Shown: in pieces, positions 13,791 to 19,902 of the stretch
Numbering within the stretch: the stretch's first letter is position 1
How the letters are laid out: each line of letters opens with the position of its first letter
Source of the DNA: Pseudomonadota bacterium
GTDB lineage: Bacteria; Pseudomonadota; Alphaproteobacteria; Sphingomonadales; Sphingomonadaceae
Length of the DNA: 64,000 bases
Direction: 5' to 3'
NCBI GenBank assembly: GCA_021847605.1
Contig: JAJZQN010000009.1
Span: 1 to 64,000, forward strand
Translations under genes and position numbers: made by a program
The notes under the pieces: model-generated
What the model was told of the DNA's origin: nothing
Databases searched by the model: none
The model's input: only the letters and a program-made list of their open reading frames with translations

Positions 13791-14912
13791 TCATTCCTGG
13801 AACAATGCCTTTACGCCGCGCTTTACCATCTGCGCCAGCCGCGCCGCGTCCCAATTGGTCAGGCGGATGCAGCCATGGCTTTCGGTGCGGCCTATCAACT
13901 GAGGCTCGGGCGTGCCGTGAATGCCGTAATGATCCTTGGACAGGTCGATCCATACGACACCGACCGGACCGTTAGGACCGGGACGTAATACGGCCTTTTG
14001 ATCCTTTGCCGAGGCATCCCAGAACAGGTTCGGGCTATAATGGAAAACCGGATTGCGGCTGACCCCCAGGATCGACCATTCGCCCAGCGGCAAAGGATCA
14101 TGCTGTGACCCGGTGGTAACGGGGAATTGCGCGATCAGGCGGTTCTGCGCATCATAAGCGCGCAGCAATCCGTCCGACTTGTCGACCACCAGATGGTCAG
14201 CCTGCGGCTGATCCTTTGCCACGCCCAGCATCGCCAGCGTCTCACCCCAGCCGCGTTGATCGCCCGTAATCTGCGCCACTGGCTGATTGGCGATGGCCGG
14301 CACCCGGATAACGCTATTGGCCGCCGCTTTCGTGCCGGCGGGGTTGAGGGCCACCAGCGTTTCAGGCGTGGTATGAAATCGCTCGGCCAGCTTTTCGAGC
14401 AGATTGCGATAGGTAAGCGCAGGCAGGCTTGCTTGTTCGTTCAGCCCGCACGGAATATCGAAAAAGGGTCCGCGTGCAAAACCTTCAGGAATTTTGACCA
14501 GCCATGTGGCGGGAATATCCTGCCCGTTCAGCAGGGCGGCCGCAGTCTTGCGGTCATATTCGCCAGTAATCGGCAAGCCGCCTGCTTCCTGAAAACCGCG
14601 CAGCGCCGCCTTGAAACTCATGCCAGCCTTGCCATCCAGCACGCCGGGGGAAAAGCCGCGCCGGTCGAGCAGAACCTGCGCCTGCAAGATCGGATTGGGC
14701 GGGATCGGCCTGTTATCCGGCACGATCGAAAATCCATAGGGATCGGGCGCAGGGATAGCGGGCTGAGCGGGAGGCATGGCCTGCCCGCCATTAGCCTGTG
14801 GCGCGACGGCGGCGCTGTTGTTCGCGCCGCTGGTCGTCGACACACTGCAGGCCGCGCATATCAGCGTGACGCCCAGCAGGCGGCTGTTCAGGATCATAGT
14901 CTTCCATTCCAT
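13791..14912 (-). CDS. L,D-transpeptidase with peptidoglycan-binding and LysM-like domains
   Basis: Periplasmic peptidoglycan cross-linking or anchoring enzyme (up to 373 aa). An N-terminal hydrophobic segment ends in ICAACS, a possible but non-canonical lipobox. A peptidoglycan-binding domain follows (VLLDRRGFSPGVLDGKAG, about residues 78-130), then a LysM-like segment (LAERFHTTPETLVALNPAG, about 172-210), and a YkuD catalytic domain ending in HGTPEPQLIGRTESHGCIRL with the active-site Cys. The start is uncertain: ATG 14912 or ATG 14897 (MILNSRLLG), the latter giving the more usual signal peptide. Confidence 0.88.
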   Translation of the reverse strand: MEWKTMILNSRLLGVTLICAACSVSTTSGANNSAAVAPQANGGQAMPPAQPAIPAPDPYGFSIVPDNRPIPPNPILQAQVLLDRRGFSPGVLDGKAGMSFKAALRGFQEAGGLPITGEYDRKTAAALLNGQDIPATWLVKIPEGFARGPFFDIPCGLNEQASLPALTYRNLLEKLAERFHTTPETLVALNPAGTKAAANSVIRVPAIANQPVAQITGDQRGWGETLAMLGVAKDQPQADHLVVDKSDGLLRAYDAQNRLIAQFPVTTGSQHDPLPLGEWSILGVSRNPVFHYSPNLFWDASAKDQKAVLRPGPNGPVGVVWIDLSKDHYGIHGTPEPQLIGRTESHGCIRLTNWDAARLAQMVKRGVKALFQE

Positions 14913-16895: not shown

Positions 16896-17273
16896 TCACC
16901 GCTCGAATGCGGCGATGATCGGGCATGGCCCTTCTTCCGATGCATGGCATTGCCGCGCCAGCTTATGCAGCGCATCCCGCGCCGACTGCAACTGCGCGAT
17001 CTTCACGTCCAGCGCCGCGATCCGCTCCGCCGCCAATTCACGCGCCCGCTCGCGATCCTGCCCGGCGTCGAGATGCAGTAGTTCGCCGATCTGCTCCAGC
17101 GTGAATCCAGCACCTTGCGCGGATCGAATGAAACTCAGCTGCTGCACGGCCGCATCGTCATAGCGCCGCATGCCCGCGCCGCGTTCCGGCGTATCGAGAA
17201 GGCCGCGCCGCTGATAATAGCGCACCGTCTCTACATTCACGCCGGCACTGTGCGCCAGCGCAGAAATCGTCAT
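16896..17273 (-). CDS. MerR family regulator lacking the Cys82 equivalent
   Basis: 125-aa DNA-binding activator/repressor with an N-terminal winged helix (MTISALAHSAGVNVETVRYYQRRGLL) close to that of mercury MerR, a dimerisation helix (about residues 75-108) and a short C-terminal metal loop. C109 and C117 (CHASEEGPCPII) match the two C-terminal ligands of MerR, with one residue less between them. The ligand from the dimerisation helix (MerR Cys82, ZntR Cys79) is replaced by Arg74. The start at 17273 has AAGG at 7 bases. It faces the glutaredoxin gene across a mer-like operator. Confidence 0.88.
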   Translation of the reverse strand: MTISALAHSAGVNVETVRYYQRRGLLDTPERGAGMRRYDDAAVQQLSFIRSAQGAGFTLEQIGELLHLDAGQDRERARELAAERIAALDVKIAQLQSARDALHKLARQCHASEEGPCPIIAAFER

Positions 17274-17282
17274 GCCCATGCC

Positions 17283-17313
17283 TTGACTCCGTACCATGGT
17301 ACGGACCCTATAT
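17283..17313 (+). promoter_or_regulatory. MerR-type promoter/operator of the glutaredoxin-MauE gene
   Basis: The -35 TTGACT (17283-17288) and -10 CTATAT (17308-17313) are separated by 19 bp, the overlong spacing characteristic of MerR-controlled promoters. The spacer holds a perfect 16-bp palindrome, CCGTACCATGGTACGG (17289-17304). TTGACTCCGTAC...GTACGG is almost the same as the operator of classical mer operons. The regulator's start codon lies 10 bases away, so it probably also autoregulates. Confidence 0.85.
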
Positions 17314-17347
17314 GGGTGGCATCCACTCGATCGCCAAGGATGCTGTG

Positions 17348-18097
17348 ATGACCGACCCCACCCGCAAGAGCGCTGCAATCTATCGCATGGTGATGCCGGG
17401 CCATATCTGTCCCTATGGCGTCAAGGCACGCTGGCTGCTGAAGCGCCATGGCTATCAGGTGGACGATCATTGGCTGAAGACGCGGGCGGAAACCGACGCC
17501 TTCAAGGCCGAATATGATGTAAAGACAACGCCGCAAATCTTCGTCGATGGACAAAGGATCGGCGGCCATGACGATCTGCGCCGCTTTCTGGGCCTGAAAG
17601 TGCGCGATCCCAAGGCGACCAGCTATGTGCCGGTGCTGGCGGTCTTTGCCGTGGCCGCTTTGCTGGCGCTGACAATCGACTGGCTGACCGCCATGCCGTT
17701 GCTGTCGATGATGACGCTGGAACGGTTCGTCGCCATCGCCATGGCTTTGCTCGCTATGCTGAAATTGCAGGACGTGGATCGGTTTGCGACCATGTTCCTG
17801 AACTATGACCTACTCGCCCGGCGCCTGCCGCCTTATGGACTGGCCTACCCATTTCTGGAACTGGGCGCGGGCCTGTTGATGCTGGCGCGGACGCTCGACT
17901 GGCTGTCGATCCCGGTGGCGCTGTTCATTGGCGGGATCGGCGCGGTATCGGTGTTCAAGGCGGTCTATATCGAAAAGCGCGAACTCAAATGCGCCTGTGT
18001 CGGCGGTGGCAGCAATGTGCCGCTGGGCTTCGTATCGCTGACCGAGAATGTGATGATGGTGGCCATGGCCCTATGGATGCTGCAAAGCATCCATTGA
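17348..18097 (+). CDS. Glutaredoxin domain fused to MauE/DoxX-like membrane protein
   Basis: 249 aa. Residues about 8-83 form a glutaredoxin with the monothiol active site C21-P-Y-G, the cis-Pro segment KTTPQIFVDG and IGGHDDL. Residues about 92-245 contain four hydrophobic helices of the MauE/DoxX redox-associated membrane family, with a C215-A-C217-VGGG motif near the end. An attractive reading is that electrons or glutathione move from the cytosolic domain to thiols at the membrane. The start at 17348 has AAGGA at 7 bases; the earlier ATG at 17312 lies within the -10 element and cannot be used from this promoter. Confidence 0.85.
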   Translation: MTDPTRKSAAIYRMVMPGHICPYGVKARWLLKRHGYQVDDHWLKTRAETDAFKAEYDVKTTPQIFVDGQRIGGHDDLRRFLGLKVRDPKATSYVPVLAVFAVAALLALTIDWLTAMPLLSMMTLERFVAIAMALLAMLKLQDVDRFATMFLNYDLLARRLPPYGLAYPFLELGAGLLMLARTLDWLSIPVALFIGGIGAVSVFKAVYIEKRELKCACVGGGSNVPLGFVSLTENVMMVAMALWMLQSIH

Positions 18098-18130
18098 ACA
18101 AGCAGCGCGGATGCTGGTGAGCATCCGTTA

Positions 18131-18256
18131 GAGCAGGATGAAATCAGTTTGAATCACAAATCTCCGTTCGTTTCGAGCGAAGTGGAGAAACGGCGCGCTA
18201 ATCGTTTCTCGACTTCGCTCGAAACGAACGGATCAATGCAAAATCATTAAACTCTA
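18131..18256. repeat. Palindromic dispersed element, full-length copy
   Basis: The core is a 29-base inverted repeat (18164-18192 and 18203-18231, one mismatch) of the family beginning CCGTTCGTTTCGAGCGAAG. The flanks GAGCAGGATGAAATCAGTTTG and GATCAATGCAAAATCATTAAAC end in TTAGAG and CTCTAA, giving outer inverted ends. A shorter relative with the same flanks lies at 37285-37376. Confidence 0.8.
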
Positions 18257-18257
18257 A

Positions 18258-18286
18258 AAAATAGGCGCGGATGCTGTTCAGCATCC
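18258..18286 (-). terminator. Probable terminator of the minus-strand L,D-transpeptidase
   Basis: On the minus strand, 9 bases after the transpeptidase stop, a GGATGCT/AGCATCC hairpin is followed by GCGCC and TATTTTTT. The T-run is 6-7 bases from the stem, further than ideal. Confidence 0.5.
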
Positions 18287-18294
18287 GTTGACGC

Positions 18295-19902
18295 TTAATG
18301 CTGACCGTCCCGCTCATAGATATCGGGCAGGAATTGCACCCCGTCGGCCGTCGGCACGGCGGTCAGATAGGTGAGATAGACCGGCACCGGCTGCGGTAGG
18401 GGACGATGCTGTTCGGGCGTGCTGCCCTCGGCCGCTATGGCCTTGCCAAAAAACCATCGCCCCAGTCGCTGCGCATCCTCCAGCCGGACGCAGCCATTGC
18501 TGAAATGCCGGTCAGCCTTGCCGAACAGGTCGCGCTGCGGCGTGTCGTGCAGATAAATGCCGAGGTCGTTGGGGAACATGAACTTCACTTTCCCCATCGC
18601 ATTGCTGCCGCCCGGCAATTGCCGCACGCGCACCTCCTGCTGCCCTGCGGCCACCGCGTTCCAGTCGATCGCGCTCTGGGCCAGGGGTTGAGGATTGGCG
18701 CTCCAGTCGGACAGCGCCTCATATTTCAGCCCCTTCAGCGTCGCGCCCTTCAAAATCCTGGGTGCGACCTTGCTTTCCACCAGATCGGGCGGGATGTTCC
18801 AATAGGGGTTGAGGGTCGCGTAACGGATCATGCCTGCCATGAAGGGCGTCTGCGTCTGATTGGTGCCGGCGACGACCTTCATCGTGCCATCGACCGAACC
18901 GTCGCTATAATACCAAAGCCGGGCGGACGCCGCATCGACCATGACATGCCGCACCCATGGTCCGGGCAGCAACCGCGCCCGTTCGAGGTTCAGCGCCAGC
19001 AGTCTTTCGTCGTCACCCGGCCCATGATTGAGCGCGGCAATGGTCATCGGCCCGGCAACGCCATCCGCATCCAGCCCATGGTCCGCCTGAAAGGCACGGA
19101 CCCGCGCCGCCAGCGCCTTGTCATACGCAACGCCATCCGGCAGGCCGAGGCGATGGCGCAATATGGCTATTTCACCCCCTTCGCCGCCGGGGCGCATCTT
19201 GACGCCGACAGGAACGGAAACCGCAGGCAGACTGCCCCATCGGTCGAGATAGCGCACACGCGCATCGCGCAGACGCATGTAGAGCGGGCTCATCCATCCC
19301 GCCGTCTCGACATAGTCGGCGAGCGATGGCGCCAGCGCCGCCATACGCAATATCTCGGCCGGGTCGGGCGAGCGCGGCTCTACCTCGGGATCGAGATAGC
19401 GCATCTTCACGCTGCGGGATGGACGGCGCATTGCGATGACCAGATCGGCCAGCGATTTCGACAAGGCCAGGTCAACACGGGCCAGCGCCTTGGGCGTGCC
19501 GCTGCCATTTGCATCCTCGATCAGGCGGCGCAGATCACGCGCGCCGAAATCGCGCGGATTGAGGCCATCGGCGCCACTATCCTCGATCAGGGTCAGCAAG
19601 GCATTGGCCTGTGGCCCCACGCGCCCTTTCTCGATCCAGAGCGGCCAATAGCCGCGCGGGCCATAAAAATCCTTATATTTGCCGCTGACGGCCGACCGGA
19701 TTTCCGCAGCCACGCCAGATCGAACCGCGTCGGATCCGACCTCTGACCGGGCGGACGCGGCCTGAGGCAGGGCGACAAGGCCAGCAAGCAACAGCGGCAA
19801 AAAGGTGAAGCGGACGCGGCGGCTGCGCCGCGCCCGGTCAAAAATATGGATCAGCCGCGTTCTCCACGACGGGGCGGCGGGGGCGGCGGAGGCGGCGGGC
19901 AA
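18295..19902 (-). CDS. L,D-transpeptidase, YcbB-like
   Basis: Large periplasmic L,D-transpeptidase (535 aa) expected to form 3-3 cross-links in peptidoglycan. An Ala-rich N-terminus precedes a membrane/signal segment (FLPLLLAGLVALPQAASA). A scaffold region follows, then a peptidoglycan-binding domain (RVRAFQADHGLDADGVAGPMTIAALN, about 260-290) and the YkuD domain (about 310-500) with HFSNGCVRLEDA containing the catalytic Cys. The best start is TTG at 19902 with AGGGA 5 bases upstream; no in-frame ATG or GTG precedes the signal segment. That start lies inside the upstream lipoprotein gene (52-base overlap). Confidence 0.88.
   Translation of the reverse strand: MPAASAAPAAPSWRTRLIHIFDRARRSRRVRFTFLPLLLAGLVALPQAASARSEVGSDAVRSGVAAEIRSAVSGKYKDFYGPRGYWPLWIEKGRVGPQANALLTLIEDSGADGLNPRDFGARDLRRLIEDANGSGTPKALARVDLALSKSLADLVIAMRRPSRSVKMRYLDPEVEPRSPDPAEILRMAALAPSLADYVETAGWMSPLYMRLRDARVRYLDRWGSLPAVSVPVGVKMRPGGEGGEIAILRHRLGLPDGVAYDKALAARVRAFQADHGLDADGVAGPMTIAALNHGPGDDERLLALNLERARLLPGPWVRHVMVDAASARLWYYSDGSVDGTMKVVAGTNQTQTPFMAGMIRYATLNPYWNIPPDLVESKVAPRILKGATLKGLKYEALSDWSANPQPLAQSAIDWNAVAAGQQEVRVRQLPGGSNAMGKVKFMFPNDLGIYLHDTPQRDLFGKADRHFSNGCVRLEDAQRLGRWFFGKAIAAEGSTPEQHRPLPQPVPVYLTYLTAVPTADGVQFLPDIYERDGQH

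Follow-up and report, generated by a model that had tools for sequence, protein, structure and literature searches.

The divergent gene pair described here, a MerR-family regulator gene and a gene encoding a glutaredoxin-MauE fusion protein (Grx-MauE), lies in the window, a 64,000-nucleotide stretch of DNA from a 4.26-Mb genome (112 contigs) whose nearest named relatives belong to Sphingobium. We consider it rather likely that the pair is a copper-stress module in which a regulator of the Hg(II)-MerR lineage has changed its specificity, probably toward Cu(I)/Ag(I). The pair itself is real and conserved and is probably copper-linked, and its ligand and activity are proposed here on the basis of sequence comparison. 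Since copper genes are frequent neighbours of its relatives and mer genes hardly occur there, a copper-stress module is more likely than a mercury module. The novelty lies in the regulator, a variant of the MerR/CueR kind; the Grx-MauE target family was already known and had been left unexplained. The features of the locus are as follows.

16896-17273, minus strand: 125-aa MerR-family regulator in the Arg-type clade; matches Pfam MerR_1, MerR-DNA-bind, and MerR, and does not reach the MerR and CueR cut-offs of NCBIfam
17052-17054, minus strand: codon of Arg74, at the position of Cys82 of Tn501 MerR and Ser77 of CueR
16923-16949, minus strand: metal-binding loop Cys109-x7-Cys117
17283-17288, plus strand: -35 element TTGACT, immediately ahead of the dyad at 94 of the 113 sites from relatives
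17289-17304, no strand: operator dyad CCGTACCATGGTACGG with mer-type half-sites
17309-17314, plus strand: -10 element TATATG, at a 20-bp spacer
17348-18097, plus strand: 249-aa fusion of glutaredoxin and MauE, of the SmGrx3 type
17408-17410, plus strand: codon of Cys21, the only active-site Cys (CPYG), which all 48 aligned sequences have
17720-18082, plus strand: MauE domain (PF07291), residues 125-245
17990-17998, plus strand: CAC motif, Cys215 and Cys217, invariant in 48 of 48 aligned sequences
18053-18079, plus strand: Met236, 237, 240, and 244 of the predicted last membrane helix, kept in 45, 48, 48, and 46 of 48 sequences, respectively

The two genes diverge around a perfect 16-bp dyad that occurs once in the window and lies within an over-long promoter spacer. 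A 22-base operator site searched at up to 3 mismatches was found at a single place in the host genome (0 mismatches on the plus strand and, for the same palindrome, 3 on the minus strand), and the reversed-pattern control gave 0 matches. Therefore, the regulon in this genome may consist of the Grx-MauE gene alone. The initial annotation had placed a CTATAT element 19 bp from TTGACT. The -35 element stands, and the remainder is corrected to TATATG at 20 bp: by hand count, CTATAT at 19 bp agrees with TATAAT at two of six positions and TATATG at 20 bp at four of six, and automatic spacer calling on the relatives' sites (n = 113) gave 20 bp in 82, 19 bp in 3, and another length in 28. Because the ATG at 17312 overlaps the -10 element, the start codon is most likely that at 17348.

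Just 3' of the Grx-MauE gene, a 30-nt, 97% inverted repeat (18163-18232) belongs to a repeat family and is probably a REP-like or MITE-like element. Its 21-base core had 93 matches in the host genome at no more than 1 mismatch (41 forward and 52 reverse; 0 for the reversed control), often as facing pairs. Two hairpin-forming 25-nt copies, 92% alike and spaced by 160 bp (18105-18129 and 18265-18289), lie on either side of the inverted repeat. The regulator/Grx-MauE pair is flanked by two minus-strand ORFs (13791-14912 and 18295-19902) with SHGCIRL / SNGCVRL motifs, which we take to be L,D-transpeptidase-like.

The regulator matched PF13411, PF09278, and PF00376, in agreement with its first description as a MerR-type protein, and C109, C117, and R74 were all found where that description had them. 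It scored 112.1 bits with the Hg-responsive MerR model (TIGR02051; cut-off, 150.85) and 93 bits with the Cu(I)-responsive CueR model (TIGR02044; cut-off, 147.4), and it was below the cut-off of every NCBIfam family matched. As a positive control, the regulator of L177, a real mer operon with merT- and merP-like ORFs after the operator, passed the MerR model at 182 bits. The best solved-structure match was the Tn501-type MerR (PDB 5crl, 1.6e-24). The key selectivity position was taken as the first loop Cys minus 35, as in MerR (C82, C117) and CueR (S77, C112); by this fixed-distance rule, 7 of 139 sequences stayed unclassified and one CueR-like protein (L081, two adjacent Cys) was mis-registered. 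Arg74 occupies this position in the window regulator, so that neither the three-Cys Hg ligand set (82, 117, 126) nor the Ser77 of CueR is present. The two-Cys x7 spacing of CueR is seen in C109/C117 and in 112 of the 115 clade members. According to passages of PMC11591864 and PMC9909328, Ser (monovalent) or Cys (divalent) at the key position is the main selectivity determinant of metal-sensing MerR proteins. Arg fits neither type, and the known monovalent-metal sensors of the family carry Ser, not Arg, there (passages of PMC11591864), which counts against a copper reading.

The clade comprises 115 distinct sequences, many of them from related species. Conservation of Arg74 had been proposed as a check, and the Cys82 position holds Arg or His in all 115: Arg in 112 (all C-x7-C) and His in three (C-x6-C). 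Residue 73 is acidic (D or E) in 113 of 115, and residue 78, at the place of the CueR Lys, is R in 99 of 115. In a FastTree phylogeny whose references from outside the R/H group numbered only 17 and whose root was placed on E. coli CueR by choice, the 115 sequences grouped together to the exclusion of every other type (support, 0.842). This clade joined the MerR proteins of Tn501 and L177 (support, 0.995), apart from Ser-type CueR. The regulator is thus closer to Hg-MerR than to CueR, which again counts against the copper reading. With this natural Arg/His clade, sister to Hg-MerR, the Ser-versus-Cys selectivity rule can be tested directly, and a possible path from the sensing of mercury to that of copper becomes visible.

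The dyad CCGTAC-N4-GTACGG, with at most 2 of 12 mismatches, was present within about 150 bases upstream of 113 of the 114 R/H regulators with upstream DNA, compared with 2 of 473 control stretches at the same threshold; therefore, the association of operator and regulator is not due to chance. In L173, the sole exception, the dyad is present but further away. The mer operon of L177 has nearly the same dyad, bearing out the earlier statement that the operator is mer-like.

We re-scanned 23 loci, 21 without a detected clade regulator, L039 with one at a distance, and L116 with CueR. A CueR-type operator (presumably of the motif TTGACCTTCC...GGAA) stood directly before Grx-MauE in three of them (L047, L070, and L116) and a mer-type operator was found in two, whereas neither type was found in 18, which counts against the copper reading. 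The gene divergent from Grx-MauE in L116 is a true CueR that passes the CueR model at 169.5 bits (cut-off, 147.4). In some genomes, the Arg-type regulator and CueR thus appear to substitute for each other in controlling one target. In the window's own genome, a separate CueR-like regulator (L175, 7333-10351 of contig C77) lies beside an ORF with a GMTCASC motif, which we take to be a copper ATPase, behind CueR-type operators, one of which precedes this ORF. Two MerR-type sensors would therefore coexist in this genome.

Conservation of the pair was evaluated in the best 80 loci of 574 relatives and in 296 Sphingomonadales genomes. Of the 80 loci, 66 contained a relative of the regulator, which in L059 is part of a second copy and in L039 lies at a distance. 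The fusion was matched at E 0.001 in 206 of the 296 genomes, many weakly; among the matches listed, there were 150 strong Grx-MauE genes in 122 genomes and 85 clade regulators in 76. Adjacency, the other check proposed initially, held when seen from the regulator, 67 of the 85 listed clade regulators lying within 2 kb of a listed Grx-MauE gene (about 0.1 expected). It did not hold from the gene side: 83 of the 150 listed Grx-MauE genes had no listed clade regulator adjacent, and this is to be set against the copper reading.

Twelve of the 18 non-adjacent regulators were read, and two of them do adjoin Grx-MauE (L171 and L172, the latter apparently frame-broken). The existence of such orphans, ten of the twelve having no Grx-MauE next door, is what would be expected if a MerR-family regulator merely happened to stand beside an unrelated gene. 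That explanation is scarcely credible against the observed adjacency, which is conserved across several orders, and against the dyad found at 113 of 114 regulators. In three orphans (L161, L163, and L166), the operator precedes the gene of a Met/His-rich protein, and orphan L167 lies ahead of copA-copB-copC, on their strand; the only dyad detected there had 2 mismatches. Six others (L162, L164, L165, L168, L169, and L170) have the operator, twice in L168, and no clear target gene, a point against the copper reading. The Met/His-rich proteins have about 450-530 residues (5421-6788 of L161, 6757-8226 of L026, and 5472-7061 of L166), gave no accepted match (three tested in Pfam, two in NCBIfam), and appear from their N-termini to be secreted; they may serve the Arg-type regulator as an alternative target. 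On the Agrobacterium plasmid pAt3 (L206, 7617-7952, minus strand), the Arg-type regulator looks truncated, and the operator and Grx-MauE remain inside a copper gene cluster.

The neighbourhoods of the relatives carry the link to copper. CopB was encoded within 8 kb of at least 28 of the 150 listed Grx-MauE genes, compared with about 0.7 at random placement, related genomes among the 150 not being independent; these were at least 9 of the 67 genes with an adjacent clade regulator and at least 19 of the 83 without. Among the 80 loci, copA/B/C/D-like genes occurred within 6 kb in 17, 14 of which have the clade regulator, and a Met/His-rich protein and a DUF305 protein were encoded within the same distance in 4 and 8 loci, respectively. 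One cluster of neighbouring ORFs guessed to be CopA was rejected, as it proved to be PhoX. No copA/B/C/D-like, Met/His-rich, or DUF305 gene was found within 6 kb on each side in the 24 loci nearest the window (L001-L024), and single-sequence searches of the window gave no merT, merP, or copA/B/C/D-like ORF. The lack of a copper gene in the window and in these 24 loci counts against the copper-module reading.

Plasmid records with a member of the Grx-MauE family numbered 285, of which 156 were conjugative. In 17 plasmid regions chosen from the best and spread lists of these records (two on one plasmid and two in one species), copper-type genes surrounded Grx-MauE in 13. The regions H1, H4, and H128 carried copABCD, and H7 carried copC and CusA/CzcA together with a copper multicopper oxidase. 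Genes of copper oxidases or for copper resistance were present in H22, H52, and H68, and H35, H53, H58, H61, and H64 combined cueR with ATPases for copper or heavy metals. H43, with CusA/CzcA and DUF411, was a weaker case. H15, H30, H46, and H73 were without copper-type genes. Copper islands often hold several metal systems, and nearness to copper genes is accordingly not proof of a copper function. No methylamine dehydrogenase operon was seen among the annotated plasmid neighbours read.

In contrast to the frequent copper genes, MerT was encoded within 8 kb of one of the 150 listed Grx-MauE genes (0.26 expected), with a score of 29.5 bits that did not reach the family cut-off; a distance of 12 kb brought the number to two, and none of the 80 loci had a merT/merP-like ORF. 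In the host genome, MerT was not matched at E 1e-5, and no MerA candidate exceeded the cut-off. The linkage to merT, merP, or merA that marks a Hg-type MerR was thus not seen, and the initial remark that no mer genes are nearby is confirmed, for merT and merP in the window and for merA by the search of the whole host genome. These distances and absences disfavour a mercury role. They also weigh against a variant mercury module, in which the regulator would sense two-coordinate Hg(II) and Grx-MauE would replace MerT/MerP. Such a module would suit the mer-type half-sites, the nearly identical dyad of the L177 operon, and a clade whose closest relative is Hg-MerR, but the third Hg ligand is missing in all 115 clade members, and we regard it as quite improbable. 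The earlier proposal of a thiol or metal stress module built on the mer switch and sensing something other than Hg(II) is supported by comparison with the relatives, whose copper neighbours narrow it to copper as the most likely metal, one that the proposal had not singled out.

The fusion protein passed the cut-offs of both of its domains (PF00462, 31.6 bits against 22.9; PF07291, 44.3 bits against 27), and its architecture, an N-terminal CPYG glutaredoxin with a C-terminal MauE domain, is that of SmGrx3. The CPYG active site and the C-terminal CACVGGG motif agree with the domains and motifs first described. The AlphaFold2 model (mean pLDDT, 85.7) consists of a glutaredoxin-like part followed by long helices, which we read as five predicted membrane helices, the last four corresponding to the MauE match; the stretch 215-225 around CAC was poorly predicted, with pLDDT under 50. 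Among the best 50 Foldseek matches in the PDB, the good ones covered the glutaredoxin part, none for the membrane part was convincing, and none reached E 0.001. Cys21, Cys215, Cys217, and Met14, 132, 149, 178, 237, and 240 never varied in 48 sequences (that of the window and 47 of the 80 loci).

Membrane modules of the CAC type also occur with other partners. In L225 (1489-2304, minus strand), an HMA domain (26.4 bits; cut-off, 24.8), whose best NCBIfam matches are CopZ families below their cut-offs, is fused to a CAC-type MauE. In L236 (1483-2046 and 2061-2354, minus strand), a CAC-MauE protein with a His-rich N-terminus adjoins the gene of a metal-sensitive repressor (PF02583), and in L249, on a Bernardetia plasmid, a CAC-type MauE gene follows the genes of an HMA protein and a multicopper oxidase. 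Three last-helix Met residues are kept in L225 and L249, and two in L236. This exchange of input modules, though known from single cases, points to a membrane part that handles metal or thiol-metal species.

These data are also relevant to an account that keeps the copper sensor as above and takes Grx-MauE for a Cu(I) carrier, not a redox enzyme. The glutaredoxin domain would dock Cu(I)-glutathione and pass the metal to the CAC pair and then across the membrane along Met residues of the helices, with M236, M240, and M244 arranged as MxxxMxxxM in the last helix. Invariance of CAC, M132, M149, M178, M237, and M240, the HMA and His-rich fusions with their last-helix Met residues, and four classical MauE proteins that have CGC and no such Met residues (L219, L220, L222, and L224, the last from the host genome) would all fit a carrier. 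However, the NCBI name of the family is redox-associated, DsbA, DsbD, and CcdA are among the neighbours on some Roseobacteraceae plasmids, and neither the structural matches of the membrane part nor the poorly predicted CAC loop lends the route support. On balance, a pure carrier appears somewhat unlikely.

A thiol-stress switch is less probable still. Here C109 and C117 would form a disulfide or become glutathionylated, Arg74 would lower their pKa, and the glutaredoxin would restore the thiols. The target is indeed a glutaredoxin, an Arg beside two Cys could activate thiolates, and a passage of PMC6315971 lists 'HS', which we read as heat shock, as an inducing condition of SmGrx3, an entry that also counts against the copper reading. 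We nevertheless judge this switch unlikely, because it leaves unexplained the copper clusters, the CueR-type operators on Grx-MauE, and the Met/His-rich alternative target.

In the copper-stress module that we favour, the regulator would descend from the Hg(II)-MerR lineage and keep its operator geometry. Arg/His replaces the third ligand, Cys82, the loop Cys residues have the CueR spacing (x7), and in most members Arg stands at the place of the CueR Lys. C109 and C117 may hold a monovalent soft metal, Cu(I) and perhaps Ag(I)/Au(I), between them. As with other MerR regulators, the bound metal would cause the over-long 20-bp spacer to be untwisted, switching on the Grx-MauE gene. Its product would be a membrane thiol protein whose monothiol glutaredoxin domain is probably cytosolic and works with glutathione, and the membrane domain in series with it may use its CAC pair and its Met residues for thiol-disulfide exchange and/or Cu(I) handling. 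As a result, thiols would be protected or restored under copper stress. A wider proposal, which we advance tentatively as possible rather than probable, is that the Arg/His MerR proteins constitute a third metal-sensor class, neither Cys- nor Ser-type, that moved from Hg(II) to Cu(I)/Ag(I) on mer-type DNA, and that their target heads a new copper-handling membrane family with a CAC-MauE, a Met ladder, and an exchangeable input (glutaredoxin, HMA, or His-rich tail).

Compared with known systems, the regulator resembles Tn501-type MerR as its sister group and in the same 6-4-6 dyad with CCGTAC/GTACGG half-sites, seen in L177. It differs in the Arg/His for Cys82, in the spacing of the loop Cys residues (x7, or x6 for the three His types, where MerR has x8), and in the lack of mer genes found near the window pair. 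The window spacer is 20 bp, whereas that of MerR is 19 bp, as given in the title of a reference in PMC9909328. With CueR (PDB 1q05), the regulator shares the C-x7-C loop, a basic residue at the place of the CueR Lys in most clade members, the copper-gene neighbourhood, and, in three loci, a target preceded by a CueR-type operator; unlike CueR, it has Arg for Ser77, another operator, and a different branch of the tree. On the effector side, classical MauE of methylamine utilisation likewise has the PF07291 membrane domain with a CxC motif, which is CGC in the four members seen, without the last-helix Met residues, and CAC in Grx-MauE. The MerT/MerP mercury uptake system and the ScsB/DsbD thiol relays combine membrane thiol proteins with a metal-binding or thioredoxin-like domain; they resemble Grx-MauE in layout, and we claim no relation in sequence.

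Among the titles and abstract openings listed by searches of open-licence literature, none linked Grx-MauE to copper or described an Arg-type MerR, and glutaredoxin is not mentioned in PMC10141476. In Synechocystis, copper induces a different, CGFS-type glutaredoxin (passages of PMC4182526). The closest described protein is SmGrx3 (SMa0280) of Sinorhizobium meliloti, a CPYG glutaredoxin joined to MauE. According to passages of PMC6315971, the recombinant protein had low deglutathionylation activity, its function was not elucidated, and its mutant showed no defective phenotype, the last of which counts against the copper reading. Unlike the window pair, SmGrx3 was studied as a glutaredoxin in symbiosis, these passages giving no regulator or copper link. 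On pSymA of S. meliloti strain ml59 (L210), a Grx-MauE gene that would be the SMa0280 ortholog and the gene of a regulator with Arg at the key position diverge around a dyad with 2 mismatches. The copper-stress module thus offers a concrete hypothesis for the role of SmGrx3 and of the plasmid-borne Grx-MauE family.
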